64,000 nt of DNA. Source: Branchiostoma floridae. Taxonomy: Eukaryota; Chordata; Leptocardii; Amphioxiformes; Branchiostomatidae. The stretch covers positions 14,529,559-14,593,558 of the forward strand of contig NC_049981.1 of the NCBI RefSeq assembly GCF_000003815.2, given 5' to 3'. The notes beneath the pieces were generated by a model. That model worked only from the letters and a program-made list of their open reading frames with translations. It was not told the DNA's origin and did no database searches. The translations under genes were made by a program, and so were the position numbers. Below, piece after piece: positions 2,434 through 53,200 of the stretch. The number at the start of each line of letters is the position of its first letter. The stretch's first letter is position 1.

Positions 2434-5400
2434 ATAGAACAACCTCCCAGCCCACCACACAAACGACTAAGCCAGAAACGACTAAGCCAGGTATACAATT
2501 CGTGACCGAAATTGCACTCAAAGCATGCATGAAAAATAATATTTTCTTGGCTTACGTATTAGCCGTAGTTACGTATCAACAACGTATTTAGTGTAGTCAT
2601 TTAGTATCCGTTAGTAAATTGACCTCTGTACCTGGTTGTCCAACGGGGAAATCATATTCCCCCCCAAACTCCTTGAAATGTATTCCCCGAGAGCTATGAC
2701 GTCATGCATGAAAAGACTTTAATAAGTATAATTGGATATACCAATGACAAATTCATATTACAATGGAGTGTCATCGAAGAAGGATGGAGAACGGATCGGT
2801 CAATTTTTGGAGAAAGTGCACAGGAGCAATTTCAGTGGATCTCTCGTCGAAAAAAGAAAAAAAATCCGGCAACGCTATATGCCAGCAAGCGTGGGCATAG
2901 TGGTGCATATTTCTAAAAGCGCACGCGTATTTTGTGCATTAATATTTGCCCTAACTGGCTTTACTAATGTTACCTTTGCTTCCACGGTGTTGCTTGCTCA
3001 TTTTCTTTAACAATGTATGTATACACATTATCTAGCACAACATAGTTATAGATGCTTTTGAGTAGGATTTCTACTATTTCGAAATACATACTATTAATAC
3101 TTCTCTTTCACTGTGAAAATGAAGACATCCTGTTATTCTTTTAATACATTACAAGGCATACTGATTAACATGCTCCAATCAGTTTGAAAAATTGCACTAT
3201 GACCCTCCGAGTATTCTGATAAATATTCATCCTATTTGGGCCAATTTCTACTATATTTTACTCCACAGAAGATTCTGGTACAGACTCCTGTAGTTGTCTA
3301 ACTGTTCTTTATCGTTCACCCAATAGGTGGTGTGGAGGATACTCCCAAACCCCAGACCACAGACAGTACAGGGCTGGTGGTGGGGTTGGTACTGGCACTG
3401 TTGGCAGCCATAGTGGTGGCCGGTGGAGTCATCTACTATTGCCGGAATAAGGGCAGTGGCAGCAGTAAGTAATGTACAATATCTTGTCCAAATGGTTATA
3501 CAAATTATTTGCAATTAAGGTTCTCTCATAATGGAAATGTCGTCAAAACTTGACAAAAATGTAAGTTATGATGCCAGAATATGCTAAGGGTACAAACGAT
3601 ACAATAACGCAGTTTTATCAATATTGTCAGTTATAAGTAAGTTATCTGTCCGAGGTGCATCTAAATTAGATGCGAGAGAGGTGCATAAATCGAAATGTAT
3701 GCCAATTAGACATAGCCTGATGCAAAGTTAGCCTGGCTTTATTTAAAGCTTACAGTTGATAACTTTAGGTAAGGGGGCCTAGAAAAGACGAGGAAAACAC
3801 TTCATCCAATCATTCACTCGCGTCCAATTAGAGGGAGTGGTGCCCTACAGTGCTATCCCACTGGGGCGGAGAACTGGCAGTCTTGATCAAACACTGCAAC
3901 AACACCGACAATGTTGTACCATGTGGGAGGGAGGGGCGCAAATACTTATCCTGCAAGCATTGCAAACATGTCTCCTGGTTTGAAAGATATGTTTGCTCTG
4001 CATTTCGGATTTGAGTTATATGCTTTTAGTAGTATGACTCTATATTCCGGTACAAAAATATCCGTTTTCCCACCCCACATCAACATTGAATTGGACATGT
4101 TTAAACGAAACATAATGGATATAATGGATATAAACCACAAGGGCGCATGCTGTTAAAAAAACTAGATGCAAGGACAACGCATGATTTCGCCATCCTAATG
4201 TTTCCAATAGCAATAGATAATCTATATTTTCTACTTCTGGCCCAAAAGACAAACAGAATCTGCCATTTGTGTTCCCTTTCTTACACAGTACACACCAATT
4301 AAACACACAATCTCCCCAATGCAACGCCGTGCCTAGTGCAAACGCTATTGTTTCGATCGAACAGAAGGAAGTATTTGCCCAAACAGAAGTTGACGCCTCT
4401 TGATAAAAGCAAAGTTTGGAGGATAAGCGGAACATTGCAGGGCCCATTTCCCACAATGTAAGGGCGTTTATCCCCCATTGCTTTTGCAACCACCACCAAG
4501 TTGTTGGGTATTTGCTTCAGAAGTGGACAGGTGTGTTCTATGTGTGTTCTTCTAGTTTAGACTCACTAAAAGATGTGGTGAAAGAGCTGGTTTTACGGAC
4601 GTTAGCACATTGAGGGAACGTCAACAATAAAAGAACGGCAGCGATGTTTGTGTTCTCTCGGTCCTTTAGCTGGGAGTATTTTGGCGTAACCCACATGCTT
4701 TAGGATTAGGTCCCACTTCCCAACCCGGGGCCCGGACGGGTAGCTTTTGGATACAAAATAGGATATAAAAGACAAAAACACACAGAACGAAAACAAAATT
4801 AGTCATGAGCATAATTTGTAAATATTTCTTGGTAAACACTTTTATTTTTCGTTTCCGCAAACGTCGCGTCTGGCCATTGGCCCCGGTTTGGAAATGGCAC
4901 CTAAGCCTAATATTGAAACAACTCTATGCATTCAAGATTTTCAAAGTGACATTCAAAGCTTCATCAGTGAAACCTACTTAGGTTAAATCGACTCACAAAA
5001 GTCAAGAAAACATTCCCGTATGATAGAATGTTCAATACAATTAAAAATGCCATGTTAATTGAACATAGAGAATTAAACTATTACACACAACGAATTCAAG
5101 CTCTCAAAAGGCATATCTCTTCAGCTCTGAACAGCAGTTTCCCGATTTGGGAGTCAAAGATGAATTATTGCTTTCTGCTTTTTTATTATACAGTTGTTGT
5201 TGTTGTTGTCTCTCTAACCGCTTCAGTTTGTCGGTATGTGGTCACATAAAAAGCTTCGTGCTAAAATAAGTCATGCTTTGTCAAAATTTTTAAAAAGATA
5301 TGTCAGATGTCACATGCAGAAATGACAAAATTTCCAACACCAAAGAAATCTTGTCATGTAAAGTACAACATTTATTTTTCTCTTTTTTCCTCAGGTAAAA

Positions 5401-10385: not shown

Positions 10386-11776
10386 ATTTCCCAAATTATA
10401 TTCGTTTGCTTGGATAACGACTATTTGGCAAAAGTGAGTGCAAAACTTTTCTGAAAAGCCTTTGGAAGTTAATGGTTACTGCTTAAACCTAAAAAATTAA
10501 TGAGTATTCGGTGATCATTTAATGATACTGCTGATATAGCCTTGTACATTATGGACTTGGTGAACCCTGACAGACAATTTTTACTATGGAGGACATAGTA
10601 GTGGCCTAGAAGATGTGGTACATGTATTTGAAGTAGAATCTAATTATACAAGTTGTAAGATACACAATGTATGTTGACCCTTGACATGAAGAGGTCAATG
10701 TTTTCCCATCAGGAAAGCCATCACAAGGAATCATGTTTTGCTTGTTTAAATATGTTAGATGCTTGTCGACGTAGCATGCTTAGAATTAAATCACGATTAT
10801 AGCAGCCCGCCCGTCACATTTCTATGAAGTACTACTAATACTGTTGTAATGGTGTAGTATAAACTTATCGTATCTCGTCTTATAATTTCTGACTCTATAG
10901 AGACAATGGGGTATTTCATTCACAATTTGTTGCTGAAAATGCTGATTTGAATATATATTGCAGAGACGCTTTATTTGGTGTTGGACTCTTATTTGACCCT
11001 TATCAATATGTAGTTTTAGCAAAGGCCTGAGAGTAGCATGTTGTGTTGTACTGAACTAGGGGTGGGTACTGGTACAGGTATGGTCCAGGTCCAGAGGATC
11101 AGGTCCTGTTTGTACCCAACAGTAAGAAAAGCAATTGTAAATTGGCGTGAATATTTATTCTTGATAACACATTTGTCTCTTTTTTTTTTACAATGTACAA
11201 AGACACACACACATATATTGTACATATATACATGAATTGTATACACACACTATCTTCAGTCATGGTGTAGTGGACTCAAGTATTTTACATTCATGAAGGA
11301 AGCTACGTAGCATTAAAATCCATTTTAAGTTGTGTTTTGACATTGATGCTGTTGCAGAGATGTTAACGTTGGTATCATTTTTGTCGGCCACATATAATTT
11401 ACAACTTACAATGGTGCTTAGTACATTTCCTTTCAATGCCGATATAAGGAATTCTCACACTGACAGCATGTGTGACCAATGCGTACACAGCTTTACAACA
11501 CTAGATACTACCATCGTACATGCATATATCTATGCCTGGCAACCAATTGTTATTTGACTTAACAGAAACTGCTTAAATTGCGTCCCCTTGCTGCGCAGTT
11601 GCTATAAGGTCTTTGCGACCTAAGATGCACTTGATTCCTTCATTTTCCTTTTTCATCGTGGCTTCAAGTATGCATCGCTTTCATTTTTTTATGTTCAATG
11701 TGTTTCTGATATTCTATTCCAAACATCAAACGTGAGTAACAAACACATAGATTTTTTTGCCTCGCCAATAATATAT
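10386..11776. other. Intergenic; nothing recognised
   Basis: No exon with coding similarity was seen. Short CA/TA-rich runs occur near 11200-11250. The stretch lies downstream of both the DHFR relic (+) and the giant reading frame (-), so it may contain their 3' ends. Confidence 0.4.
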
Positions 11777-14700
11777 TTATGTCGACAAATCATTCGACAT
11801 TGAGTCGCTCTCTTCTCCTGATAGCTTAGATTCAATCGAATTTTTGACCTTATTGACGCCAACCTTCATTTTGCGGACAAGCTTAGTTGGGGTGAGTGTG
11901 CCGCCAGATTTCTTAGAAGTGCTTGGTTCTTCCTCTTTTGCTTTACTAGCAGCCAGCGTAGGCTTCCCCTGGTGCCCCCGGCTTGACAAGTCCTTTTTCT
12001 TCTTCTCCGAAGTATTTTTCTGCATCTCCGGGGGAAGCGGTGGACCATAGAACGTTTTTTCGGTCGGGGGGTCCGACTTGTGCGGGAACGTCTCTTCCCC
12101 CTTTCCCGCTTCCTCCATGGCCCTTTCTCTGGCCTCTCTCTCTCTTTTCCTCTCCTTTTCTTTCCTTGACTGGAACATTTGAGAGAACTTGAAAGGTTTT
12201 TTCACTGTCGACGAAGCTTCCTGCACCGGTGTCTCGTCCTTGGCAGAGCACTCCTCTACAGTCTCCAGTTGTTCCATACTTTTCTTCACCATGGTGTACG
12301 CCTTCTTCTCCAAGGCTTTCCAATATTCGTCGTCTTTCAGATCCTCCGCTGAGACGGGTTTGTCCAAGTCTATCTCATCTTCGCTGTCTTCTGACGAGTC
12401 GAAGACTTCCATGTCCAGTTTCTTCGGTACTAAGCCCGTGCCCGGCATGCTCGGTCTGGACCGGACGCCCGTTGACGCCCCGAAGTGACCGGGTAACATC
12501 ACCGGTGATCGGTCGACATCATACTTCACTTGTTTCTCGATGCCAGGTGGCTTGTAGGAGGCAGAGGTCGCACCAAGCTCCCTGCCTGACGATTCAGCCC
12601 GCCGGATGTTTGTGTGAGACCGGTCCTGGCGAAGCCGTGCTCTCTCACGTTCTTCTGGATCCTCAATATTCCACCATGGCTTTTCACGATCTCTGGAGAA
12701 CTTGCTACCCCAGTAGTAGTTAACCTCCGCATCCAGCCGTGCCCTTTCGTCATCATTATACTTCTTTATCCCCGACGACACCCAGCTGTATGGACGCTGA
12801 TGCTCAGAAGTGTCTGGCTCGGAGGATTGTTCAGCGTTTGGAGGTTCTGCTGTAAGTCCGGTCTGGACTATTGGCGGTCCAGCCGTCTGTGCTGTTGACT
12901 CCATACGGGGAGTCCTTGGCCTGTCGTCAGCGTCCTTGGCTGACTGTACAGTCTTCATGGGCTCAGATTTGGTTGGTTTTTCCTCTTTTTCTTTACTAGC
13001 AGCCAGTGTAGGCTTCCCCTGGTGCCCATTTTTTGTCAAGTCCTTTTTCTTCTTCTCCGGAGTATTTTTCTGCATCTCCGGGGGAAGCGGTGGACCATAG
13101 AACGGTTTTGCGGTCGGGGGGTCTGACTTGTGCGGGAACGTCTCTTCCCCCTTTCCCGCTTCCTCCATGGCCCTTTCTCTGGCCTCCCTCTCTCTTTTCC
13201 TCTCCTTTTCTTTCCTTGACTGGAACATTTGAGAGAACTTGGAAGGTTTCTTCAGTGTCGACGAAGCTTCCTGCACCGGTGTCTCGTCCTTGGCAGAGCA
13301 CTCCTCTACAGTCTCCAGTTGTTCCATACTTTTCTTCACCACGGTGTACGCCTTCTTCTCCAAGGCTTTCCAATACTTGTCATCTTTCAGATCCTCCACT
13401 GAGACGGGTTTGTCCAAGTCTATCTCATCTTCGCTATCTACTGACGAGTCGAAGACTTCTATGTCCAGTTTCTTCGGTACTAAGCCCGTGCCCGGCATGC
13501 TCGGTCTGGACTGGGAGCCCGTTGACGCCCCGAAGTGACCGGGTAACATCACCGGTGATCGGTCGACATCATACTTCACTTGTTTCTCGATGTCAGGTGG
13601 CTTGTAGGAGGCAGAGGTTGCACCGGGCTCCCTGCCTGACGATTCAGCCCGCCGGATGTTTGTGTGAGACCGGTCCTGGCGAAGCCGTGCTCTCTCACGT
13701 TCTTCTGGATCCTCAATATTCCACCATGGCTTTTCACGATCTCTGGAGAACTTGCTACCCCAGTAGTGGTTAACCTCCGCATCCAGCCGTGCCCTTTCGT
13801 CATCATTATACTTCTTTATGCCAGACGACACCCAGCCGTATGGACGCTGATGCTCAGAAGTGTCTGGCTCGGAGGATTGTTCAGCGTTTGGAGGTTCTGC
13901 TGTAGGTCCGGTCTGGACTATTGGCGGTCCAGCCGTCTGTGCTGTTGACTCCATACGGGGAGTCCTTGGCCTGTCGGCAGAGTCCTTGGCTGACTGTATA
14001 GTCTTCATGGGCTCAGATTTGGGTGGGACTCCTTGAGACGCTCCTGTGTGCCATTGTGACACTGGAGTCCTGTCCATCACGGGGGTGTTCCGCTTAACAG
14101 CAGTGTCTTTAGACGGTTGTTGAATCTTCATCGGGGATAGTGAGGTCTGTTTGACAGATTTGTCTGTTGCCTGTATGTCTGTGCACCTTGGTGACAATGC
14201 TTCCGTCCCCATCGTGGGAACTTTCCGCCTAACAGCATTGCCTTGAGTTGGTTGCGGAATCTTCGTAGGCAATAGTGAGGTCTGTTTGACAGGTTTGTCT
14301 GTTGCCCGTATGCCTGTGCGCCTTGGTGACAATGCTGTTGTCCTCATCGTGGGATCTTTTCGTTTAACAGTCGTGTCTTGAACCGGTCGTGGAATTTTCG
14401 AGAGCAAAGGCGCTGTTTCTTTGAGAGAGTTCTTTTCCGTTGATTGCATGTCTGCACGCCTTGGCGACAGTGCAGTAGTCCTCATAATGGGAGTTTCCCC
14501 CTTAACATCTACGCCTTTTGTCGCTTGCGAGATTTTTGTAGGCGCTGATTTTGCGGTCTGGTCTCCGGACGGTCCAGCTTTCGGCACGATTGCTCCTTTC
14601 TGTGAAGCTTCAAGACTTGGCTTTTCTTTCTTGTCCTGTGTGGACTCTTTTGTCTGTCCAGATCTGTCCGGACCTGTGACTGGAGGATTTGCTTCCTTAG

Positions 14701-17700
14701 AAGGTGGTGAAGATTTGGCGGTGCTCGATGTACTTGCTACTTTGGTGGATGCCGTGGGTTTAGAAGGTAAGTCCTTGGACGTTACCACGACCTTCTTAGG
14801 AGTGCCCGAGGCTCCTGCTTCTTGTGACCCCTTTAATTTGGATGACATGTCCTTTTTAGTGAAAGCTTTGGGACCGGACCTCTTTGTTGCAGCATCCTTA
14901 GATGCTGAATCAGGCTTTTTAGCATACTTGGACGGGGTGGCTTGCGCCTTGGAGCTTCTGCTTTCATTGACGTCGCCAACAAGGGCGTCCCAAACTTTCT
15001 TGGAATACTCTTTGCGCATCATACCTGCCTTTCCGCCCTTCACAGTGTCCTTCTGTGTTTTAGCTGCTGGCTCAGCCGAGCCCTTCGCTGACTGCTTGCC
15101 AGTTTTTCCAGCCGCAGATCCAGGTGGACTTGTTGAACCACCTGCTGTCTGTATGTACACGTTTTTTAGGGAAGTTCGACCCTGGGCTGCGGACGACTGA
15201 TCCTTCGCCATTCCTGATGCCAACTCCGTCCCAGACGCTGGCTGAGGCCGCATCTCTGGAGTCACGACAACCTTTGGTTTGGGCAGGCTCCGTGAGGGCC
15301 TTTCTTTGCCGCTGGAATAGGCTTTCTCGCCTGGCTGTCTGTACGGATACTTCCTTTCGCTGGTTTGACTTGGTTTCCGGACCAGTGGAATCTGTGAGGC
15401 GCTGTCTTCCGAACGGGACTGTATCCTACAGGTGTGGGTGCGGGGATTTTTCCGCGGTGCCCTATGGTGGATTGGAACCGACCTCTGAACGGGTACTTTA
15501 TCTTCGTCGTCACTCTCTAGGTGCATTTTCATCACCATCGTCACATGGCATTGTTTGCATGTCATTCTTATGGCGCGGTACGTCCATGTATGCTCATGGC
15601 CGTGCTTTTTGGTGTTGCATATAGGCACGGGGACTTTTTTGTGCCCCTCATCCTTCTCGTCGTCATCCTCACTGTCAGTTTCTATATGGTATTTTATAAG
15701 CAGGGGCTCGTTGCAACTCCCGCACTTGAATCTGGTGGGCTCGTACGTCCAGTGGTGGGCGTGGTCTATCATGCAGCAGGGGGTATCCTCCCCATGCACA
15801 ACCTGGTAGTTGTTGTCGCACTGGTACCAAGCGCTTTCACCGTGGTCAGTGTGGTTGCAAAGTGAGAGTTGGTGTTGTTCTGCCCCTTGCAGCTCATGCA
15901 AGAATGGGCGTTCCAGATTGATGGTCAATTTACTGTCCGATTTTATCCACTCTGTAGCCGTCTGGTAGTCATCAGCCGACACTACCACGCCTGGCTCTAG
16001 TGATTCTTCAGAGCACTGGGACCCTGAGTCTTCGACCACATTCATTAATGATGTCGTCATCAGCAGTTCGGAGATACTGGTGTTTATTATCGCGAGCTCT
16101 TCATTTGCCTCTGCTCTCACCTCCTCGAGTTTCTCCGGCGAAATCTGTGACTTGTCTTCCTCGAGCCCGAGGAGAAAATCTGTGACATCCTCCTTGTCCT
16201 GATGGAGCTTTATGGACAATTCCCTTCGACGAAAGAACCTGTCTACTGTCTGTGTTATCTGGTGTTTAAACGTGTCCTGGGGATGGTCATAAGGCTTTTG
16301 GACAAAATACTCAGTAAGCCTTGGCAGTAGAGGTGGTTCCGGGATGTTAGTGTGCAGCACGGCTGCTTTTGTCCCGATGCTGAACTCCTCTGCCGTGCTG
16401 TGTTCTGTGCCCTCGTCACGATGGGTGACGGTTCTCTTCTGAGACAAGGTGGATTCCTGCGCGGCGTACATCGACATGACGGTGTACTGTCGGTTTGGAT
16501 CTGGTACCGGCTGCATGGCCCCGGAGCCGACCAGATCCAAAAGTGGCCGCGGCGACGCCTGGGAGGCATCTCGCTCCGGGAATCCTGAGATTCCGGACAT
16601 CAGAAACTCCATTGTTGGTAAAGCAGGAGGATTGGGGACTTGTCTAGATGTATATCTGATTTCAGACATCAGAAACTCCATCGTCGGCAGCGCAGGAGGA
16701 GACGGAACCCGTCCGGATATATCTGTTATTCCGGCCATCAGTAGCTCCATAGGCGGCAAAGCCGGGGGCGAAGGGACTAGTTCGAATCCTGCCCCATGCA
16801 TCATTAGGTGTGGTGTGGCTCGTGAAAGACTTGGGCGCCTCAGCTGCTCTGGGGTTGGGAGCGGTGGCGGCTCAGGGATATGGCCAAATTCCATTGTACC
16901 CACGGTCTCGCTGGCCTCTGCCACATCTTCTACTGATTCATCTCCCTTTGTGACCTTAGTCTTGTGCGTCATTTTGTTGGAAGCAGTAGTACTCCTCATA
17001 AACGCACCACCACCTTGTCCCTGGCCTGGACACATCAAAGAAGGCGGGTACTGAGGGGTTGCTAGAGCTGAAGGTCCTGCCATTTGAAGCGCCATGTTAA
17101 GCTGTGGCGCCGCAGGTGGAAGACTTGGGCGCCTCAGCTGCTCTGGAGTTGGGAGTGGTGGTGGTTCAGGGATATGGCCAACCTCCATTGTACCAACGGT
17201 ATTGCTGGCCTCTGCCACATTTTCTACCGTTTCATTGCCCTTTGTGACCTTAGTCTTGTGCGTCATTTTGTTGGAAGCAGTAGTACTCCTCATAAACGTA
17301 CCACCGCCTTGTCCATGCCCATGGGACAAAAGTGAGGGCTGAGGCACTGACAGAGCCGATGGTCCTGCTAACTGTAGAGCCATGTTTGGCTGAGGCCGTC
17401 CGAATCCACCTGAGATTCCGGCCATCAGTAGCTCCATAGGCGGTAAAGCCGGGGGCGAGGGGACTCGTCCGAATCCACCTGAGATTCCGGCCATCAGTAG
17501 CTCCATAGGCGGCAAAGCCGGGGGCGAGGGGACTCGTCCGAATCCCCCTGAGATTCCGGCCATCAGTAGGTCCATAGGCGGTAAAGCCGGGGGCGAGGGG
17601 ACTCGTCCGAATCCTGCCCCATTCATCATTAGGTTTGGCGTGGCTTGTGGAAGACTTGGGCGCCTCAGCTGCTCTGGGGTTGGGAGTGGTGGCGGCTCAG

Positions 17701-20700
17701 GGATATGGCCAAACTCCTTTGTACCCACGGTTTCGCTGGCCTCTGCCACATTTTCTACCATTTCATCTCCCTTCGTGACCTTAGTCTTGTGCGTCATTTT
17801 GTTGGAGGCAGTAGTGCTCCGCATAAAAGTACCACCGCCGTGTCCCTGGCCTGGAGACATCAAAGAAGGTGGGTACTTTGGGGTTGCCAGAGCTGAAGGT
17901 CCTGCCATTTGTAGCGGCATGTTAAGCTGTGGCGCAGCAGGTGGAAGACTTGGGCGCCTCAGCTGCTCTGGCGTTGGGAGTGGTGGCGGTTCAGGGATAT
18001 GGCCAACCTCCATTGTACCAACGGTATTGCTGGCCTCTGCCACATTTTCTACCGTTTCATCGCCCTTTGTGACCTTAGTCTTGTGCGTCATTTTGTTGGA
18101 AGCAGTAGTGCTCCTCATAAACGTACCACCGCCTTGTCCATGGCCATGAGACAAAAGCGAGGGATGAGGCACTGTCAGAACCGATGGTCCTGCTAACTGT
18201 AGAGCCATGTTTGGCTGAGGCCGTCCGAATCCACCTGAGATTCCGGCCATCAGTAGCTCCATAGGCGGCAAAGCCGGAGGCGAGGGGACTCGTCCGAATC
18301 CACCTGAGATTCCGGCCATTAGTAGGTCCATAGGCGGCAAAGCCGGGGGCGAGGGGACTCGTCCGAATCCCCCTGAGATTCCGGCCATCAGTAGGTCCAT
18401 TGGCGGCAAAGTCGGGGGCGAGGGGACTCGTCCGAATCCTGCCCCATGCACCATCAGGTGTGGTGTGGCTCGTGGAAGACTCGGCCGTCTCAGCTGTTCC
18501 GGAGTTGGGAGCGGCGGCGGCGGAGGGATCTGCGCAACTTCCGTAGTTGCCATGGCTTGGCTGGCTTCTGCAACGTTTTCCACAGTTTCGTCACCCTTTT
18601 TGACACTCGTCTTTTGTGTCACCTTGGCTGACGTAGATGTGTGGTGCATGGCTGTGCCTCCAGAAAGGCTGGGACCAGTCAGTCCACCAAGCTGTGGCAT
18701 AGGCAAGCCAGGTGCGGTAGGGCGGTGTGACAGCAGACCCATAGTTGGCACAGAACCGGGAATTGCCAGTTCAGCCGGTGGCGTTATCTGAGCATGTGCA
18801 CCGAGACCAAAAGCCGGCAGCGACGGCGTTGGGATATGCTCAGCCTGGACAGCCGCGACCACTTGCGATGCCTCTGCTGTATCCTCAGTCTCCCCTGTAG
18901 ACGTCTTCCTCCTCACAGTGGTGGAGTGTTTCAGCTTGGTTGCCTGGGACTGAAGCCGGAAGGACAAGCTGTCGTTTCCAGGTGAGCCGGACTGCATATG
19001 CCCGGGCACCGCGTGGTCCCTTCTTCCTATTGCATTATGCAAGACTTGGCCCAGCGTCACCGGTGATAGAGGAGGCATGGCCGACACTGGGTGTGCAGAT
19101 AATAAACCCAGGCCAAAGGACGGCAGGGGCGGCGGTGACGGGATTCTGTTGGTCTGAACTGTGGCGACCATGTATGATGCCTCGGCCGTGTCTTCCGTCT
19201 CCCCTGTAGACGTCTTTCTCCTCACGGTGGTGGAGTGCTTCAGCTGCGTCGCCTGGGACTGCAGTCGGAAGGCAAGACTGTCCCTTTGAGTTTGCATCAT
19301 GCCATGTGCTGTATCCCTGCTCTCTGCAACATCACGCAAGGCTGATGCAAGGGCCGTGCTTTGGACCCCTTGGCTTGTGTGGTCCCTGCCAACAGGACTA
19401 GAGCTTCGAGGGGTGCCTGTGGGCGAAGTTGCGCGGGAAGATCGTACACTGCCGACATCACTTCCCGCCACACTGCTGGTGACGCTGCTTCGTGGGGAGG
19501 GGTGGAACTCTACGTGTCTGAATTCCTTGCTCTGAAACCGAGCCAAGAACTGCGGCGGAACGTACACCATTGCAGCTTCCTGCAGCAGTGCCTGTGCCTT
19601 CGGTGTCTTGTCGTCCGACTTGTCGCCGCCCGACAGATAGTAGTCAGGGGGAGGAAGAGGGGGAGCTGCCGGCGGTGCAGCGAACTGGGCCTCCACCATG
19701 GTTGCCATTGTAGCAGTCTCCGTAGAGATCTCTGTGCCATCTTGCTCCCGGGAGCTGACGGTGGCGCGCTGTCCCACCTCTGCCGTTTGTGTCGTGTATA
19801 CAACAGGAGTGGCCTGTGCTGGCGCACTGCCTCCTGGGAGACAGCCTGGCAGTGGGGGAGGAGGAGGCGGAGGGGTGAACGCAAGTGCTGTCTTCCTCAC
19901 CGCCTGACTAGACTCCAGAGAAGTAGTGTCTTTCTTCTTGCCTTTCCCGTATTTGGTCACAGTGCTCTTCTGTGACATGGCACTCGACTGAGAGTTGAAG
20001 TGCAGGGTCTGTTTCTTTTCCTGACGATCTTCCCCGCGATGTTGGAGCGTGTTCTTTAGGTCTTCGACCACTTCTGGGTGGAGACTAGAGCGCCTTCGAC
20101 GGTCTGGCACTTTCCAGATTGTGCCTTCTGGCTCTTCATGCCCGTCAGATTTCTGTGACTTTGGAGGAGAGCGTTTTTTGTCAGACTCCACCTTAGCCCC
20201 TTGTTTGCTGCCTGGCTTCTCTGACTTTCCACTCTCCGCCGCAGTGTGGGGCCTTAATGGGTCTCTTTTCATACAGGGAATGCTTGCTTTTCGTGGCATA
20301 CTAGCTGTCGGCATCATATTCTTTATTCCTGGCGATTGTTCCCGGACTGGATAACGTCCCTTGGACAGTTTGGTCGTCTGCCTTTCACTGCGTGGCTGTG
20401 CGTCTGTAGCGTTTTGATCATCCATGCCAGACACAGAGGGCGGTGGGGAAACTCTGATCGCCAACAGGCGGTTTCCAGTCGACGCTGCCGTGTCTGTCCT
20501 GTCGACAGGAGCGTTTGAGGGGAGTACAGGCAGGCCGCCTTCTTCTGTGGCGCCTATGAGAGGCATCAAGTTTGCTGCTCTTGCCAGGACACCCGACAAG
20601 ATTTCAACAAAGAACATTGTAAGCCCCAGTGTGGCTGCCTCCATCGTGCTGTACGTCTGGTTAACTTGATGGACCAGTTCGCCAAGAAGTGTTGGGTTAA

Positions 20701-22855
20701 AGAGCTCTGCCTCTGTCGCTACCACCACGGGGTTGATGATCGAGACAGCGCGGTTCAGAATGCGGAGGGAACGGTTGTTTGCCATCAGTCCCTCAGTCAC
20801 GGAAACCGTTATTTTCTGAACGGCTATCTTGACTCTGGCCTCTGCACCGTAGGATACAACTGAGTCTGCCACAGCCGTGGATCTGACTCTAGCACCTCTC
20901 TTGGTTTGGGCAGGCTCTGTCTCAGGTGTCCCCCCAGAGGACCCAGATGCAGACGCCAGGCCTTCCATGCCCTTAATGAGGCACTCGGAACTTCTTGGTG
21001 CAGGGGGAGGCTCTTCCATCCCTTCCACGCTTTTATCTGGCCGGACTTCGGTCAAAGAGCGCAACATATAAGGGGCATCGACTCTAGGGTCGGTCATGTC
21101 TCGTGGTTTGTCTTGAGTGGTCCACGACTTTTTCTCCTTAGGGGCCTTTGTCCAGATGGGCACGGGCTCATCAACGGTGGACGAGCCGAGAGCGTCTGCG
21201 TCCAGGCTTGAGGACTTCCTGGCTTGTGTACGTGTCTCATTGGTGAGCGCAGGGGACATCTCACTACCCTGGTCCTTCTGGACAGAACTCATTACACCTT
21301 TTTTCTTGTCGTCCTTCACCTTAAGGATTCCGCCTGATTGAGGAGACTTCTTTCCGGAGGGGACATTGTTTGCCGGGAAGAGCCCTGTCATACCAGCTCC
21401 CTTTGCCTCTCGGGTGACGTTAGAGCCGCCAGATTTCCCGCCAAGATAATCTGGCTTGCTCGCGTTCCCTGTTTGCGGGGAGTCCGTCTTTTCCGAGGGC
21501 TTCAGTAGGGGCTTAGGTGTGAGGCTTGCACCAGGTGCCTCTTTCTCAGCTGGTGCCCCTCCAACAGCCATACCAAGCTTATCTTCTTCGTGGACTTGCG
21601 GATCGTCTGAGTCACCAATCTTAGTGATGCCTGCGAAGTAAATGCTTGAATTCTTTCGCCCGCTGAAGGTAGGTTCGTCCTCTTCGGTCTCCGCATGACA
21701 TGCCAACTTGAGGTCAGAGTGTTTGGAGTGCCTTAGGGAGAGGTTGCTGCAGGGCAGGTCCAGGCCGGGTGGGGGCGGGCCTAACTCGTGCTCCTTTTCC
21801 TGCCTTTGGATCTCTCGGACCCAGTATGTCAGCGCCTTGTTGTTCGGGTTGTGGTTCTTATCGAACTTCTTAACCCACGGCCTAGGGTCAGGAAAGTCCT
21901 CCAGCTCGCCAAAGAAGTTTGGGGTGGTTGTGAATTTTCTGCGGTTGGCTCGACGACGCCTTTCTTGTCTTATGGCCTCCTGCCTTTCTTCCAACTCATA
22001 CTTCTTGACTGCGCCTTTGATGACGTTTGTGGTGAATATCTTTGCCAGCTTCTGTATCTTCTCCTCGTCCTCCTGTTCCTTGGTTTTGGGGGCATCGCCC
22101 TTCATGAACGCCAATCTGTTTCTCACGGTCCAGGCGACCGCCTTAGCGATCGTTTTGAACTTCTTCTTTTTCGGAGGGGCCAACTCCTGTCTGGCGTTAT
22201 AAATCATCTTCTGGCGGAGGATTTCGTTCGTCTTGGAGCATCTGATCCGAAGCGTCTTCCCAGACGCTGTTCGGATCTTCCCCTGTCTCACATCGGCCAT
22301 CGTAGTTATCGACTGGCTTTTGTGGAGATGCTCTGTTGCTGCACCCTTGGAGTCGCGCCTGTGCACGAGCTCGTGTGTGCTCCCCCTCTGGTGGGTCTCG
22401 GTCGTTTCGCGAGAGATCGGCTTAAACTTCGTGATCTGCGAGAGGAGACCGAGGTCTTCCCTTGAGCACTCGCCCTTGATTCGGGTCTTCTCGGCTTGGA
22501 TGAGTCCGGTTATATTAAGAACAGAGTCCATCATGTCCACACCTGACTCACAGCTGCCGCTCGACATAGACGAGCAAGATTCGATTTCAATCTGCAGGTC
22601 TGAAGTGGCGGATTCGATTAGGTTTTTCGCAAAAATGGTGGTGACGTTGTTTTTGGAGCCACCTTTGAACATCTTGCTGATGCTAGTCGCACTGCGGAGG
22701 ACTGTTGGGTCTTTGATCAGTTCCTCTGCATATTTTGATACATCGGTGTTCGACTGCGCAGGGGAGGGACGCGCAACGCTAAGTGTGGGACCTATCCCAG
22801 CACTACTGCTAGAACTACTAGCACTAACATCTAACTTATCTTCTACAGTATACAT
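11777..22855 (-). CDS. Giant uninterrupted ORF: 3692-residue modular repeat protein, unrecognised
   Basis: One open frame of 11,079 bp with no stop, read from an ATG at 22855 to TAA at 11777-11779. I do not recognise the family. Visible parts: a Ser-rich N-terminus; a basic conserved-looking block at about 225-345 (KKKKFKTIAKAVAWTVRNRL; FFGELEDFPDPRPWVKKFDKN); a hydrophobic helical segment at about 670-765; a proline run at about 995; from about 1000 to 2200 a repeated module with consensus 'K.T.KT.V.KG.E ... AEAS ... IP.PPPLP'; nine 23-residue repeats (FGRVPSPPALPPM, then LLMAGISG); three Cys/His units at about 2332-2440 (C-x2-C with upstream H-x-H and WTY); a Lys/Ser/Pro region; four 45-residue repeats; and two 350-residue tandem copies at about 2945-3645. 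Most of it is predicted to be disordered and charged, which suggests a cytoplasmic or nuclear scaffold; this is inference. Upstream exons cannot be excluded. Confidence 0.8.
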   Translation of the reverse strand: MYTVEDKLDVSASSSSSSAGIGPTLSVARPSPAQSNTDVSKYAEELIKDPTVLRSATSISKMFKGGSKNNVTTIFAKNLIESATSDLQIEIESCSSMSSGSCESGVDMMDSVLNITGLIQAEKTRIKGECSREDLGLLSQITKFKPISRETTETHQRGSTHELVHRRDSKGAATEHLHKSQSITTMADVRQGKIRTASGKTLRIRCSKTNEILRQKMIYNARQELAPPKKKKFKTIAKAVAWTVRNRLAFMKGDAPKTKEQEDEEKIQKLAKIFTTNVIKGAVKKYELEERQEAIRQERRRRANRRKFTTTPNFFGELEDFPDPRPWVKKFDKNHNPNNKALTYWVREIQRQEKEHELGPPPPGLDLPCSNLSLRHSKHSDLKLACHAETEEDEPTFSGRKNSSIYFAGITKIGDSDDPQVHEEDKLGMAVGGAPAEKEAPGASLTPKPLLKPSEKTDSPQTGNASKPDYLGGKSGGSNVTREAKGAGMTGLFPANNVPSGKKSPQSGGILKVKDDKKKGVMSSVQKDQGSEMSPALTNETRTQARKSSSLDADALGSSTVDEPVPIWTKAPKEKKSWTTQDKPRDMTDPRVDAPYMLRSLTEVRPDKSVEGMEEPPPAPRSSECLIKGMEGLASASGSSGGTPETEPAQTKRGARVRSTAVADSVVSYGAEARVKIAVQKITVSVTEGLMANNRSLRILNRAVSIINPVVVATEAELFNPTLLGELVHQVNQTYSTMEAATLGLTMFFVEILSGVLARAANLMPLIGATEEGGLPVLPSNAPVDRTDTAASTGNRLLAIRVSPPPSVSGMDDQNATDAQPRSERQTTKLSKGRYPVREQSPGIKNMMPTASMPRKASIPCMKRDPLRPHTAAESGKSEKPGSKQGAKVESDKKRSPPKSQKSDGHEEPEGTIWKVPDRRRRSSLHPEVVEDLKNTLQHRGEDRQEKKQTLHFNSQSSAMSQKSTVTKYGKGKKKDTTSLESSQAVRKTALAFTPPPPPPPLPGCLPGGSAPAQATPVVYTTQTAEVGQRATVSSREQDGTEISTETATMATMVEAQFAAPPAAPPLPPPDYYLSGGDKSDDKTPKAQALLQEAAMVYVPPQFLARFQSKEFRHVEFHPSPRSSVTSSVAGSDVGSVRSSRATSPTGTPRSSSPVGRDHTSQGVQSTALASALRDVAESRDTAHGMMQTQRDSLAFRLQSQATQLKHSTTVRRKTSTGETEDTAEASYMVATVQTNRIPSPPPLPSFGLGLLSAHPVSAMPPLSPVTLGQVLHNAIGRRDHAVPGHMQSGSPGNDSLSFRLQSQATKLKHSTTVRRKTSTGETEDTAEASQVVAAVQAEHIPTPSLPAFGLGAHAQITPPAELAIPGSVPTMGLLSHRPTAPGLPMPQLGGLTGPSLSGGTAMHHTSTSAKVTQKTSVKKGDETVENVAEASQAMATTEVAQIPPPPPLPTPEQLRRPSLPRATPHLMVHGAGFGRVPSPPTLPPMDLLMAGISGGFGRVPSPPALPPMDLLMAGISGGFGRVPSPPALPPMELLMAGISGGFGRPQPNMALQLAGPSVLTVPHPSLLSHGHGQGGGTFMRSTTASNKMTHKTKVTKGDETVENVAEASNTVGTMEVGHIPEPPPLPTPEQLRRPSLPPAAPQLNMPLQMAGPSALATPKYPPSLMSPGQGHGGGTFMRSTTASNKMTHKTKVTKGDEMVENVAEASETVGTKEFGHIPEPPPLPTPEQLRRPSLPQATPNLMMNGAGFGRVPSPPALPPMDLLMAGISGGFGRVPSPPALPPMELLMAGISGGFGRVPSPPALPPMELLMAGISGGFGRPQPNMALQLAGPSALSVPQPSLLSHGHGQGGGTFMRSTTASNKMTHKTKVTKGNETVENVAEASNTVGTMEVGHIPEPPPLPTPEQLRRPSLPPAAPQLNMALQMAGPSALATPQYPPSLMCPGQGQGGGAFMRSTTASNKMTHKTKVTKGDESVEDVAEASETVGTMEFGHIPEPPPLPTPEQLRRPSLSRATPHLMMHGAGFELVPSPPALPPMELLMAGITDISGRVPSPPALPTMEFLMSEIRYTSRQVPNPPALPTMEFLMSGISGFPERDASQASPRPLLDLVGSGAMQPVPDPNRQYTVMSMYAAQESTLSQKRTVTHRDEGTEHSTAEEFSIGTKAAVLHTNIPEPPLLPRLTEYFVQKPYDHPQDTFKHQITQTVDRFFRRRELSIKLHQDKEDVTDFLLGLEEDKSQISPEKLEEVRAEANEELAIINTSISELLMTTSLMNVVEDSGSQCSEESLEPGVVVSADDYQTATEWIKSDSKLTINLERPFLHELQGAEQHQLSLCNHTDHGESAWYQCDNNYQVVHGEDTPCCMIDHAHHWTYEPTRFKCGSCNEPLLIKYHIETDSEDDDEKDEGHKKVPVPICNTKKHGHEHTWTYRAIRMTCKQCHVTMVMKMHLESDDEDKVPVQRSVPIHHRAPRKNPRTHTCRIQSRSEDSASQIPLVRKPSQTSERKYPYRQPGEKAYSSGKERPSRSLPKPKVVVTPEMRPQPASGTELASGMAKDQSSAAQGRTSLKNVYIQTAGGSTSPPGSAAGKTGKQSAKGSAEPAAKTQKDTVKGGKAGMMRKEYSKKVWDALVGDVNESRSSKAQATPSKYAKKPDSASKDAATKRSGPKAFTKKDMSSKLKGSQEAGASGTPKKVVVTSKDLPSKPTASTKVASTSSTAKSSPPSKEANPPVTGPDRSGQTKESTQDKKEKPSLEASQKGAIVPKAGPSGDQTAKSAPTKISQATKGVDVKGETPIMRTTALSPRRADMQSTEKNSLKETAPLLSKIPRPVQDTTVKRKDPTMRTTALSPRRTGIRATDKPVKQTSLLPTKIPQPTQGNAVRRKVPTMGTEALSPRCTDIQATDKSVKQTSLSPMKIQQPSKDTAVKRNTPVMDRTPVSQWHTGASQGVPPKSEPMKTIQSAKDSADRPRTPRMESTAQTAGPPIVQTGPTAEPPNAEQSSEPDTSEHQRPYGWVSSGIKKYNDDERARLDAEVNHYWGSKFSRDREKPWWNIEDPEERERARLRQDRSHTNIRRAESSGREPGATSASYKPPDIEKQVKYDVDRSPVMLPGHFGASTGSQSRPSMPGTGLVPKKLDIEVFDSSVDSEDEIDLDKPVSVEDLKDDKYWKALEKKAYTVVKKSMEQLETVEECSAKDETPVQEASSTLKKPSKFSQMFQSRKEKERKREREARERAMEEAGKGEETFPHKSDPPTAKPFYGPPLPPEMQKNTPEKKKKDLTKNGHQGKPTLAASKEKEEKPTKSEPMKTVQSAKDADDRPRTPRMESTAQTAGPPIVQTGLTAEPPNAEQSSEPDTSEHQRPYSWVSSGIKKYNDDERARLDAEVNYYWGSKFSRDREKPWWNIEDPEERERARLRQDRSHTNIRRAESSGRELGATSASYKPPGIEKQVKYDVDRSPVMLPGHFGASTGVRSRPSMPGTGLVPKKLDMEVFDSSEDSEDEIDLDKPVSAEDLKDDEYWKALEKKAYTMVKKSMEQLETVEECSAKDETPVQEASSTVKKPFKFSQMFQSRKEKERKREREARERAMEEAGKGEETFPHKSDPPTEKTFYGPPLPPEMQKNTSEKKKKDLSSRGHQGKPTLAASKAKEEEPSTSKKSGGTLTPTKLVRKMKVGVNKVKNSIESKLSGEESDSMSNDLST
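11921..14020 (-). repeat. 1050-bp (350-residue) in-frame tandem duplication in the giant ORF
   Basis: Copy 1 (protein order) is about 12971-14020 and copy 2 about 11921-12970. All landmarks are offset by exactly 1050 bp (for example 14011 and 12961). The copies differ at scattered positions only, so the duplication is recent or is homogenised by gene conversion. Each unit encodes a KSEPMK start, a WVSSGIKKYNDDERARLDAEV helix, a KPWWNIEDPEERERARLRQD block, an acidic DSEDEIDLDKP patch and a Lys/Glu-rich helix. The unit length keeps the frame. Confidence 0.95.
14030..14500 (-). repeat. Four degenerate 45-46-residue repeats in the giant ORF
   Basis: Units carry TALSPRR, TDKPVKQTSL, P.KIPQP and VKRK..P.M. 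Successive CCTTGG landmarks on the + strand (14186, 14321, 14459) are 135 and 138 bp apart, so the frame is kept. The SPRR and TSL.P positions resemble proline-directed phosphorylation sites, which is inference. Confidence 0.8.
16560..18460 (-). repeat. Higher-order 825-bp repeat built from 69-bp (23-residue) and AEAS modules
   Basis: The TTGGGCGCCT landmark occurs at 16831, 17125, 17656 and 17950, with a diverged form at 18481. The first and third, second and fourth, and third and fifth are each 825 bp apart, so the unit is 275 residues. Each unit has a block of three 23-residue repeats (69 bp; FGRVPSPPALPPM) and two AEAS / IPEPPPLPTPEQLRRPSL modules. The block nearest the C-terminus (16560-16790) is the most diverged. 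Confidence 0.93.
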
Positions 22856-27220: not shown

Positions 27221-28080
27221 ATTAGATAGTGCCCCTCTAGTAAACCACGCGGAATTCAGACGGAGCCACGGAAGAATCGATGATTTTATTTTGTTCGTCC
27301 GCTTACGGTATTTTTCTCTGGAACGCCAAACATTACTCAAGAGCAACGGCTCTCAGTGCAAAGTGTCGCCATGTGGCGCCACCTGCCGTAACAAGGCGGC
27401 ACTGCAGCTGACGTCGTCAACCTGAAACGTTAAACTTAACCTAGTGATTCAATCTCTGATATCCTATATAATGAATATTTATTACTTACATATGACTTCA
27501 CAACCCTCACAAGTTGTACCTACCTTGAGTTGGTTGATCTTCGCTGATGTTTTCTACACTTGCTAATGTATAACGTCCATCGCGCTCGCAATGATGAACA
27601 TCACATTTAGATGGATCGCTCTTTGCACTGCTTACTTCTTTTAAGGTGTTCACGACTCGATTTGTTTAACGAGCCACAAATGTAAACTTTCGTGGTTACG
27701 TGTGGAAAATATGACACAGTTGTACGTCCCGACAGCGGGTCGCAGCAACATGCTTATAGCGGGCCTGCTCGCAGTGCCTATATCTATATCTCCTATATCT
27801 ATATTTTCCATAGACAACAGCGAGACAACAAGAAATGAGTGTCTCACCTGACGCCCTGAGGTCTCGAACACTGCGCTGTAAAAAGAACGGTTAGAAAAGT
27901 TCAAATCTTTATTGAGGTTTCTCTAAAAATCGCGGTGATGCTTGAGAGTTGCGACGAATACGTCCTCTCTTCAAGGTCACTTGCAACGATCTGTTTACAA
28001 CTCTTGTTGTGCTACCACAGTGACGTGAGGTGACGTCACTGACGTTAAGTAGTGATGATGGAGTTTAGGTTCTAGAACAG
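27221..28080. repeat. Segmental direct duplication, copy A (about 0.86 kb)
   Basis: Copy A matches 28214-29075 at an offset of 992-993 bp over most of its length, with scattered substitutions and small indels. Shared marks are GTCGCCATGTGGCGCCACC, GAACGGTTAGAAAAGTTC, a minus-strand TTTTTACAG/CGCAG ... TCAG/GTGAGA (an exon-like 28-nt block with AG and GT borders) and a TGACGTCA palindrome at 28031-28038. Its nature is unknown: it could be a duplicated promoter/first exon or an unclassified mobile element. Confidence 0.85.
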
Positions 28081-28213: not shown

Positions 28214-29075
28214 ATTAGATAGCGCCCCTATAGTAAACCACGCGGTATTCAAACGGAGACACTGAAGAATCGTTGATTTTATTTTGTTCGTCCGCTTACG
28301 GCATTTTTCTCTGGAACGCCAAACATTGCTCTAGAGCAACGGCTCTCAGTGCAAAGTGTCGCCATGTGGCGCCACCTGCCGTAACAAGGCGGCTCTGCAG
28401 CTGACGTCGTCAACCTGAAACGCAAAACTTAACCTAGTGATTCAATCTCTGATATCCTATATAATGAATATTTATTACTTACATATGACTTCACAACCCT
28501 CGCGAGTTGTACCTACCTTGAGTTGGTTGATCTTGATGTTTTCTACGCTTGCTAAGAGATTTAACGTTAATCGCGCTCGCAATTATGAACATCACATTTA
28601 GATGGATCGCTCTTTGCACTGTATACTTCTTTTATGGTGTTCACGACTCTGATTTGTTAAACGAGCCACAAATGTCCACGGACTTACCTACAACTTTCGT
28701 GGTTACGTGCAGAAAATATGACGTGCGCTAACACAGTTGTACGTCCCGACAGCGCGTCGCAGCAACATGGTTATAGCGGGCCTGCTCACAGTGCCTATAT
28801 CTAACGTTATATGTCCTATATGTACATTTTCCATAGACAACAGCAAGACAACAAGAAATGAGGGTCTCACCTGAAGTCCTGTGGTCTCGAACACTGCGCT
28901 GTAAAAAGAACGGTTAGAAAAGTTCAAATCTTTATTGAGGTTCTCTGAAAATCGCGGTGAAGCTTGACAGATGCGACGAAGACGTCTTCTCTTCAAGGTG
29001 ACGATGGCTGCGATGTGTTGCGCCGTGACGTAACGTGACGTCACTGACGGCGTACTGTTTGGGGGTTCTAGAACG
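28214..29075. repeat. Segmental direct duplication, copy B
   Basis: Second copy of the 27221-28080 unit. The TGACGTCA palindrome is kept at 29036-29043, and the minus-strand acceptor and donor around the 28-nt block are both kept despite other substitutions. The spacer between the copies is about 130 bp. Confidence 0.85.
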
Positions 29076-29374
29076 ATTGTTACGTGAAGGAGAGGACATG
29101 CGTCCAAGCAGACGGAGAGCACGTGATCAGCAATTAACACAAAAACACGTGACCAGGCAAGTTTCATTGGTCACTAGGTTCCTCTTGGTAAAGCCATTCA
29201 TCAAAGTTTACATCTTTTTATCAGAAATCAAATCGACGTGATATAAATGGATATAACCAAAATATGTAAATGTTAAGACAAGATATCTTGCATCCTGTTC
29301 TGTTTGTGTGAGCCATTTCAATATTCATACAAAAAATGCATTCACAAACTTTTCAAAGTTGACTTTCTTATCAA

Positions 29375-34264: not shown

Positions 34265-36733
34265 TTAAAATAAAGAAGTTTTTTGTAATTCCATCCAATC
34301 CAGAACCTGTGGAAAGAATGGCCGGAGTTTGGCCATTGGCCACACCATAATCCACGGGTAGTACAGCTCACGTTGCCGTACAGTGCCGCTGCGTATAATC
34401 ACCATGGCAGCATCCTCCGCTGAGAGAGCGGTGAGTTTGCAAGGTATTCGATTCCAAAGAACTTGAAAAGAGAAGAAAAAGAGATTTAGTTGTTTTGAAA
34501 AACCAACAATGTTTGGACTGAGTAGACTTCACATGGAATTTTCTAAAACTGCAAATTGATACCAAATGTTACATATGTATCCTTTTACCTTTGCTGAGTT
34601 CATGGCTTGTTCCGTGTCTATCAAGCCCAGCACCACCAGTGTAATTGACACGTCAGCCTTCTTCAGTTGAAGCTCCTGTCGCAAAGATCCGAAGAATCCA
34701 TCAAGGGCAAACTTTGCCCCCGAGTAGAAGGACAGGAAAGTACTCGTGATTTTACCTGTGGCAACGTAGTGCATGTCAAAAATGCAGGTTACTTTCACTC
34801 TTAGTAATCTGCCTTTTGTCAAGGTAGTTTTATAAGGTCGGTAAATCAATTCAATAAAGTTTTCTTAGGTTTAGTTGCATAATAAAACTTCAATGGTTTG
34901 TTGGTTCTTACCTAAAAGCGATGACACGACCACCACACTGCCGTTGCTCTGCTCTAACATGGGTAGCGCGAGTGATGCCAGCCGTATGTATGACAGGTAG
35001 TTAATGTTGGTGAAGTCCTCAAGGAATGCCATATCTCCGTCCCATAGAAAAGGGCCTCCTTTGTTATAGCTTGAACCCATGTGGTTCAACACAAGGTAGT
35101 CAAGTCCTCCTGTGTACATTTTGCAAGTTGATAAGATGCTTTTAATAAGTTAGTACTTTTTTCTAAAATTGCAACAGAAAAGTGACTTGTGCATTGACTG
35201 TGACTGAGGAAAAATACGTCATGAAATTTTCCATCAAATATTTGCAGTATTCTCCTTTGTGCACAATTTACACAAAGGAGAACAAGAAATCAAAGATCTC
35301 ATAACTCCATGAAATAATTAGTTTTTCCTGATTTCTTTTTTATTGATTCTTCTTAATTCATAGCAGGAAATTGAAGGCTGAAAATGAAACTATTCTGGAC
35401 CTTAAAATTTGACCTGACTTTCTGTCAGTGTCCCAAACATGCCTATAATAGGTTACCCTGAGGAAAGCTGTAGCAAGGGCCAGACATTTGATGTGTTCTT
35501 TGCTGCACTAAAATTACATTTTCAATGTCATTATTACAAGCTTTCAGTAGAAGCCGCTTACTTGAACAACCCATGGTCATTTTGCGAGATTATCTGGTAA
35601 TGGTATGGTAACAATAGCTGATTTGACTTGATGTTAGTATTATGAATACCAAATTTTTCCTTTGCTGTTTGGATGGTCCTCTCACAGTCCTCTGGTTTCC
35701 CCATGTCTCCTGCTACATAGATGGCCTCCTGGGCTCCCAGGTCCTTCATCTTAGCTACAACCTGGACAAATACAGGATGGACCAGAAATAATGTCTCCTG
35801 CTACATAGATGGCCTCCTGGGCTCCCAGGTCCTTCATCTTAGCTACAACCTGGACAAATACAGGGTGGACCAAAAATAATGTCTCCTGCTACATAGATGG
35901 CCTCCTGGGCTCCCAGGTCCTTCATCTTAGCTACAACCTGGACAAATACAGGGTGGACCAGAAATAATGTCTCCTGCTACATAGATGAACTACTGGGCTC
36001 CCCAGGAAAACAGCTTTGACGTATTGCACAAATTGGTTTCATATAACTGCAATAAAATACATAATGTATTTGTTTGTCCCAATGATTTTCCTAACAACTT
36101 TGCCTCTTTGAGTCGTGCCTCCCTCCTTGCGGTGATGACGACCTTTGCACCCAGCCTTGCATAGTGGTACGCCATCTGTTCACCGATACCAGTACTGCAA
36201 CCAGTGACAACAACTCTGGCTCCCCTCAAGGATTCTACAAAGAAAACCATCAATTTTATATTTGGTAACTGTTACCTGTGCGTGTGTTTAAAAACAATTT
36301 CAGGCTCCATTAATTTTGCTTTGAAACAAAAGAGCTGACAAATTTCTCCTTATCAATAAGCTGCTTCACAGTTGGAACTAAGTATGCACAAGGTCAAAGG
36401 TGAAGGCCCCAAACTTAGAATATATATATAAATAAACTTAGAATAAACAATTCTTGCAGCTTTGGCCATCTATTCAACTTTTTATGTAACCATTTACAAA
36501 TTGTGAACTGACAATTACCTAGAATGTTCTTTTATATCTAATCTTTACATTTCTGGATCATCGCATGATCTGGATGAAAAAAAATATAGAATTCAATACG
36601 ACTGAGTGTGATATATGATTAACTACTTATAATGCATGGACAGACACTTACCAGGGTCAAAGCCATCAAAGTACAGATAGCAGCCAATCACAACAGCAGT
36701 CAGTAAAGCAAACAACCATGTCCATCCTGCCAT
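34265..36733 (-). CDS. HSD11B1L: Membrane-anchored short-chain dehydrogenase, HSD11B1-like
   Basis: A classical short-chain dehydrogenase/reductase related to 11-beta-hydroxysteroid dehydrogenase 1: NADP(H)-dependent oxidoreduction of a hydroxyl/keto substrate, anchored to the ER membrane; the substrate is not known. Exons (minus order): 36652-36733, 36104-36234, 35650-35761, 34912-35109, 34589-34755 and about 34265-34414, giving about 279 residues. The sequence shows an N-terminal membrane anchor ([20 protein letters not shown]), the cofactor motif TGCSTGIG, a strand-4 LNHMG, Ser in VVVVSSLLG, the catalytic YSGAK (Y-x3-K) and the family's ALDGFF and LGLIDTE. Exon 2 appears to end at a GC donor (GAG/GCAAAG). 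Exon 3 is followed by tandem copies of its own acceptor side. For the last exon, the frame needs the acceptor GGAG/GAT; the nearby CAG five bases earlier would cause a stop after seven codons. Confidence 0.88.
35705..36002 (-). repeat. 88-bp tandem repeat copying the exon 3 acceptor of the dehydrogenase
   Basis: Units start at 35705, 35793, 35881 and 35969, each 88 bp apart; the last is partial and diverged. Each full unit holds the first ~57 nt of exon 3 (coding [19 protein letters not shown]) and the acceptor TTTGTCCAG. Only the copy nearest the 3' end of the gene (35650-35761) continues to a donor. Since 88 is not a multiple of 3, reading through extra copies would break the frame. Confidence 0.95.
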
Positions 36734-51728: not shown

Positions 51729-53200
51729 TACACATATCTACATGGAGGACATTATACTTATACTACTTAACAGATCTTGTAAGAAGCATTTGTACTATTA
51801 ACTGCACACGAGGTTAGATTTAAACAAATTCTTTTAAGTTGATGACAGGCTTAAGATTTTTTACTTGTGTTCATTTGACATGTGTTTATGTTGTTGTTAT
51901 ATTGTACAAGACTCAATTACCAAAATTGGTACCTTCCAGTACAACAGTTATTCAATGGTGTGATCTGTCAGATTATCTGGTCACTCCTGACCAATCCTAT
52001 TGTTTATGTGGATTTGAGAACAAAAGCCAGGTGACCCCAACAGGTAAATATTGACGACGTCACCTGGGCGTCCCCACAACAATGTAGACCTACATAGTGA
52101 CCCTGATTTGTTCGGTGGCTTGAATGTGTCATAATGAGCACTTACGTATACTACAAATCATTGTAAAAGTAAAGATCCCATAGACTGCGCCATTTTGAGG
52201 CTATAGAAGCAGTGGGTTGTTATCCAAGTTGTGTCTAGGGCATGTCTAGGAGTGAGGAAAGTAAAAACTGCTAAGGACACAATGTGCTGCCAGACTGTCA
52301 GCTGGAATTAAACCTGCAACCTTGTATCTGCTCCCCTAGCCAGTTTATACAATATTAGAACTAAGATTAGTGCATTGTTGCACCCCAAACTAGAATCCAA
52401 ACCCCTTTTCAAAAGGATGATACATGTGTTACTCTAATTCTAAATGTATATGTAGAAAATATACTTTTCTCTGACTCATGAAAATTAGACCAAAAGTGCT
52501 GCATTAATGCATTTCAGAATTTTGAAGTTGGAGATGTAGACTGCTTTACACAAAGATATTAAGGTTCAAAGAAAATAAAATTTTTGAAATGAACATCTAT
52601 TCTTGTTGATATAAAAACAAATTGATTATGTCCAGACATAAATCCGTAAATGTTAGTGCCAGAAGGAGGACCTATAAATATTATTAGTAGTAAGATAATC
52701 AATTGTAATTTTAAAGCAAGGTCAGAACATGTAACCACTAGGTTCAGTGACCTTTGGTCAGTTTGCTCTTTGATTGACCAGATCAGTCAATTATTGTCCT
52801 TTTGGGGGTTATTTCATCTAGCCAGGTATGTCTTGGGTCATCAATAAGTTTGTGGCCCCACCCAGAAATAAGGTGTACAACTTATATTTCTTGGTAACGT
52901 TATATGGTATGATGTCTTTTGTTAATATCCACTAAATTTCAATTGATTGCGTACTTTTCATTTGAGGTCTTTTTGAAAATCAATCTCGGTAAGTGTTGAG
53001 AAAAACAAGGGTGAACTGTGACCAGGGTGGGTCGTGTTCCTCATGCCATGAAATCTACCAAGATGTTGTCAAAATGTTTCCTCTGTATTTCAACTGGAAA
53101 AAAGTGGGTGTCTGACTTTCTTTGGACCAAGTTGAATGGCATACCTTAGCTTGCAGATCAATTGTTCATATTTTTTATTTCACTCAACTGCCTCAGCGTC

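Follow-up and report, generated by a model that had tools for sequence, protein, structure and literature searches.

What kind of gene keeps a single reading frame open across eleven kilobases of amphioxus DNA? The frame in question lies on the minus strand of a 64,000-nucleotide stretch of the Branchiostoma floridae genome, hereafter the window, at 11777..22855, and runs from ATG to TAA over 3692 codons. Our listing of open reading frames (ORFs) reproduces the coordinates and length given in an earlier note on this DNA. A stop in the same frame lies upstream of the ATG, separated from it by nine open codons (27 nt), and the stop-to-stop frame is 3701 residues long. The longest ORF among 200 first-order Markov sequences of equal composition has 375 codons, and the longest in the two flanks within the window have 158 and 172; the 3692-codon frame is therefore not a product of chance. 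Its GC content is 0.542, against 0.32-0.44 in scanning windows clear of it. Its GC3, 0.565, falls inside the 0.449-0.655 range of six neighboring ORF pieces, the three of those six with Pfam support lying slightly lower (0.461-0.533). No further copy of the 3692-residue protein was found within the window. Inspection of the sequence located a possible polyadenylation signal, AATAAA, about 620 nt past the stop (11154..11159, minus strand), and another AATAAA at 10975.

Judged from the open frame alone, the coding part is probably one giant exon, or nearly so. A heuristic splice-site scan of the ORF and its flanks, using uncalibrated weights, found no donor or acceptor above its thresholds, and because nothing passed anywhere, the scan says little; its top donor overall, 5.7 at 16120, sits inside the ORF. 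Alternatively, the ORF could be the giant terminal exon of a bigger multi-exon gene, comparable to sacsin or the giant ankyrins, with upstream exons supplying further domains. We regard this alternative as doubtful, if far from negligible. Acceptor-like sites do occur within the opening 600 nt of the ORF (5.2 at 22435, 3.1 at 22753), with a further one before its start (6.9 at 23657), and giant coding exons are on record inside multi-exon genes: Ank2, Ank3 and Clip1 in the excerpted text of PMC10901741, and SACS, whose exon 10 is given as 11,487 bp in that of PMC8745260. Against these points, a stop in frame lies just upstream of a plausible ATG; eight of ten minus-strand ORFs of at least 70 residues between 22.9 and 31 kb have no Pfam match, in a scan that short exons would escape; and two downstream ORFs likewise have none. 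Near the end of the ORF, within its final 600 nt, no donor in the uncalibrated scan scores higher than 1.5, and for that reason the stop looks terminal.

The predicted protein is built largely of repeats. Comparison of overlapping 100-residue pieces with the whole protein, taken together with tandem-repeat calls, bore out the graded series that the earlier note had described; a BLASTP comparison of the whole protein with itself gave no internal matches, probably because the program discards matches contained in a larger one. All features named here are on the minus strand. Residues 640-800 (20456..20938) include the most hydrophobic stretch, with a Kyte-Doolittle 19-residue maximum of 1.82 at residues 739-760; the structure model of this region is mostly helical and of low confidence (mean pLDDT 54, pTM 0.27). 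Ten modules of about 50 residues, each with a [I/V]PxPPxLP-type core, occupy residues 956-2176 (16328..19990), and 23-residue units are interspersed between some of them. Three of the short units and two modules compose a 275-residue higher-order unit, present at residues 1451-1725 (17681..18505) and again at 1726-2000 (16856..17680), with a third unit, partial and diverged, at 2001-2091 (16583..16855). The 23-residue units stand in threes, at residues 1472-1540 (18236..18442), 1747-1815 (17411..17617) and, in diverged form, 2022-2092 (16580..16792). Two possible zinc-binding units follow, HHWTY...CGSC at residues 2360-2390 (15686..15778) and HTWTY...CKQC at 2411-2446 (15518..15625). CxxC occurs twice in the ORF against 0.4 times in shuffled sequence, a count that 16 of 200 shuffles reach, and a single-sequence structure model of the two units (mean pLDDT 37) is uninformative on a zinc-ribbon fold, which has four ligands in two knuckles. 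Next comes a basic region rich in Ser, Thr and Pro with 45-residue repeats, at about residues 2772-2938 (14042..14542), within which a tandem array of period 135 was called at 14088-14399. Two 350-residue units, residues 2944-3293 (12977..14026) and 3294-3643 (11927..12976), stand in register at exactly 1050 nt.

Tandem periods within the ORF (69, 135, 825 and 1050 nt) are all divisible by three, which an open frame requires. Elsewhere in the window this does not hold for the two longest periods, 686 and 88 nt, and holds for some of the short periods but not for others. The frame was built by in-frame tandem duplication. Counts of indels modulo three, taken from nucleotide alignments of repeat pairs, had noisy gaps and were set aside.

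Have the copies been held by selection since they arose? Between the two complete 275-residue units, 32 codon differences are synonymous and 18 nonsynonymous, for a dN/dS of 0.18 (95% bootstrap interval 0.10-0.34; two other estimators give 0.27 and 0.25), and third positions hold 36 of the 53 changes (p = 2.8e-7). Three older module pairs yield 0.30 (0.18-0.46), 0.37 (0.19-0.74) and 0.24 (0.12-0.41), all these pairs of the array overlapping in part and so not being independent. Third positions account for 55 of 106, 26 of 44 and 60 of 118 changes in three partly overlapping module pairs other than the 275-residue one. Since the dN/dS intervals exclude 1 and third positions are favored, purifying selection on the module array is supported by the pattern of substitution. 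The smaller repeats are less informative: dN/dS is 0.16 (0.00-0.68) between 23-residue blocks too similar to tell, and borderline, 0.49 (0.24-0.98), in the 45-residue pair, where third positions hold 32 of 77 changes (p = 0.08). The two CxxC units, at 38 codons, give no usable dS, 88 of 200 resamples being computable and ranging in dN/dS from 0.15 to 1.21.

The 350-residue pair presents another picture, and the contrast with the 275-residue pair has a Fisher p of 0.0012. Over 335 codons it shows 8 synonymous and 23 nonsynonymous codon differences and a dN/dS of 0.68 with an interval spanning 1 (0.32-1.65); for a slightly longer alignment of 352 codons, the values from three estimators are 0.75, 1.14 and 1.13, and changes are spread 15/15/15 across the codon positions. 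The earlier note had argued that selection keeps the frame open, and had put forward a dN/dS comparison of these very copies as a check, with a value near 1 counting as a refutation. The argument is supported for the module array; in the 350-residue pair the values (0.68-1.14) are near 1 or compatible with it, and constraint is unsupported there. The end of the protein appears young, its last duplication having come under no detectable constraint since its origin. The same pair could be cited in favor of the view that the frame as a whole is a decaying or non-coding repeat array, open by accident, but 3692 stop-free codons and four partly overlapping array pairs whose dN/dS intervals exclude 1 make this the least probable of all the explanations weighed here.

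A different explanation for the 350-residue pair is that the gene upstream is real while the second copy is a false duplication, produced in the assembly by the joining of two haplotypes. An alignment of the copies shows 45 mismatches in 1056 nt and no internal indels, and where polymorphism is very high, alleles of one animal could diverge that far; moreover, a nearly exact 686-nt tandem copy occurs elsewhere in the window, at 53198. Allelic changes would, on the other hand, be expected to be mainly synonymous, whereas nonsynonymous differences predominate here (23 against 8). The similarity of the copies also falls toward the junction, reaching 0.88 and 0.87 in the two 20-residue windows that come nearest before it without crossing it, from 0.93-1.0 further inside (residue 2951 to the window starting at 3251), a weak sign of an evolved junction. 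We judge a false duplication unlikely.

What, then, has selection preserved in the array? The [I/V]PxPPxLP-type core occurs at about 19 places, ten in the modules and nine in the 23-residue units, with 16 of 19 matching exactly, and it takes mostly the forms PPALP and PPPLP. Among six diverged modules of the ten, mean pairwise column identity is 0.79 in the eight ligand columns and 0.26 in the 35 others (permutation p = 5e-5), a contrast that is somewhat generous because the conserved prolines also anchor the alignment. The pentapeptide RRPSL adjoins five of the ten modules, always on the downstream side, and extends to RRPSLP in four of the five; we take it to resemble a basophilic-kinase and 14-3-3 site. 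Compared with local shuffles, against which the repeats inflate all such counts, RRPSL occurs 5 times where the expected mean is 0.0, the looser pattern R..[ST].P occurs 14 times against 3.4 in 200 shuffles, and PPLP is present ten times, eight of them in the array and two in the 350-residue units, whereas shuffles average 0.6 and none of 200 reaches ten. In PRPF40A, the first of the WW domains binds PPLP, according to the excerpted text of PMC11079029.

Other peptide ligands show no comparable signal in the ORF. Canonical SH3 patterns number 4 against 4.6 in shuffles, which is no enrichment, and another SH3 pattern is absent against 4.4, so that SH3 partners are less likely. An EVH1-type pattern is likewise absent (0.7 in shuffles), and neither PPxY (1 against 0.4) nor SPx[KR] (9 against 8.1) is in clear excess. 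A pattern for the amphipathic helix by which AKAP proteins bind RII occurs twice against 2.5, and a site may be present all the same. For the microtubule-tip motif SxIP, a loose pattern gives 5 against 5.8; a strict one gives 2 against a mean of 0.3, a count reached by 5 of 200 shuffles, and is not claimed.

These observations suggest a gene with one giant exon whose product would be a flexible scaffold displaying some 19 proline-rich ligands to adaptors of the WW type, a reading that we consider evenly balanced between right and wrong. The protein would be large, mostly flexible and fast-evolving. Its central array would present the copies of the core, which contain or resemble the PPLP ligand of WW domains, and many individually weak sites could jointly bind an adaptor tightly. 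Phosphorylation at RRPSL might switch this binding, and the basic tail and the two CxxC units may dock the scaffold to a second partner. Flexibility of the array is itself a reading from composition only, because by charge-hydropathy 29 of 72 windows classify as folded, and these cover most of the module array. Longer internal exons encode disorder more often, according to PMC9825244.

Searches for relatives returned no significant match in Pfam, NCBIfam or PDB, and the earlier description of the protein as of unknown family holds in that sense, namely that it belongs to no curated family, which says nothing on orthologues. For the whole protein, Peptidase_C2 is the only Pfam match up to an E-value of 1 (E = 0.21, 11 bits, cut-off 23.8), and the sole NCBIfam match scores 13.9 bits against a cut-off of 194. 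Pfam scans of two subregions and of the ten modules found nothing over the gathering cut-off, the best module E-value being 0.036, and PDB held no match to the whole protein, to the CxxC region or to a profile of the modules. Scans of the window with Rfam and for tRNA genes were also empty. Six short peptide patterns had no match in viral contigs, and 18 pattern matches in prokaryotic contigs yielded no confirmed relative, as expected for an animal gene.

Two of the subthreshold matches are to viral families: the CxxC region matches DUF325 far from significance (E = 0.049, 13.9 bits, cut-off 28), and the module match just mentioned is that of a single module to a nepovirus polyprotein model, also below cut-off. 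They could be read, together with the intronless open frame and its GC of 0.54 among surroundings of 0.32-0.44, as traces of a viral or mobile-element insertion carrying large genes without introns, in place of an old host gene. The flanks nevertheless hold no long ORF, GC3 is within the range of neighboring ORF pieces, and both the viral-contig search and the Pfam cut-offs gave nothing; such an origin is very improbable.

Ten ORF pieces around the gene were scanned against Pfam, and matches above cut-off fell in two genes. One is a short-chain dehydrogenase gene on the minus strand at 34.5-36.3 kb, matched by three of its four pieces, and the other, near 63.4 kb on the plus strand, encodes an L7Ae domain and is presumably SECISBP2-like. 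Within the dehydrogenase gene, an 88-nt tandem repeat at 35703-36002 (3.4 copies, 97% matches) has a unit that, by eye, spans an acceptor-like site and an exon start, and part of an exon seems to be tandemly repeated. A plus-strand ORF at 31467-31982 matches the Nas2 N-domain just below cut-off (21.4 against 23.2 bits) and may mark a PSMD9-type gene. Minus-strand ORFs at 27650-27922 and 28703-29170 have closely similar translations and probably belong to one dispersed repeat. Between 43686 and 46568, short tandem units measuring 15-21 nt, of types TGTGCGCGTGAAAAA and CACGCGCAAATTC, appear in several positions. The nearly exact 686-nt tandem duplication extends from 53198 to about 54570, where no gene was recognized, and could have arisen recently or during assembly.

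No report of this gene appears among the matches listed in our searches of the literature on giant or intronless genes. Tentatively, and with less assurance than we attach to the scaffold itself, the locus may represent an undescribed family of animal proteins in which one ligand peptide has been amplified about 19-fold within one exon, selection acting on the ligand while the rest of the module drifts, RRPSL following five of the ten modules, and the newest copies being not yet detectably constrained. Were that so, the gene would display, copy by copy, how tandem duplication grows a multivalent scaffold. If it is transcribed and kept in related species, the repeats at this one locus would form a series in age, the oldest being diverged modules under selection and the youngest a new duplication free of detectable selection, and it would become testable how multivalent scaffolds gain copies and when selection begins to hold them.

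Giant exons, low-complexity or repeated sequence and a scaffold or structural role come together in AHNAK, filaggrin, MAP1B and Bassoon/Piccolo, which the present protein resembles by description, its ORF matching no family model. The Xin/XIRP actin-binding proteins are likewise repeat-built scaffolds with proline-rich parts, and the excerpted text of PMC2478706 gives their 16-residue repeat as GDV(K/Q/R/S)xx(R/K/T)WLFET(Q/R/K/T)PLD and states that its authors found no Xin in Branchiostoma floridae. The present ORF differs in having neither the Xin repeat, since W[LM]F and G[DE]V[KQR] are absent from it, nor a match to Xin in Pfam. Sacsin shares with it a coding exon of about 11 kb, but is a multidomain protein with its own repeats and a UBL domain (excerpted text of PMC8745260), whereas the ORF here is without a Pfam match above cut-off. 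In SF1 and SF3A1, ligands of WW domains are proline-rich PPLP peptides, as the excerpted text of PMC11079029 has it; the putative ligand described here is akin to them but forms an array of about 19 copies, chiefly PPALP and PPPLP. The ORF is striking, yet scaffold genes that are giant, built of repeats and poor in exons form a known kind, and SACS exon 10 is one example on record of a coding exon this large.
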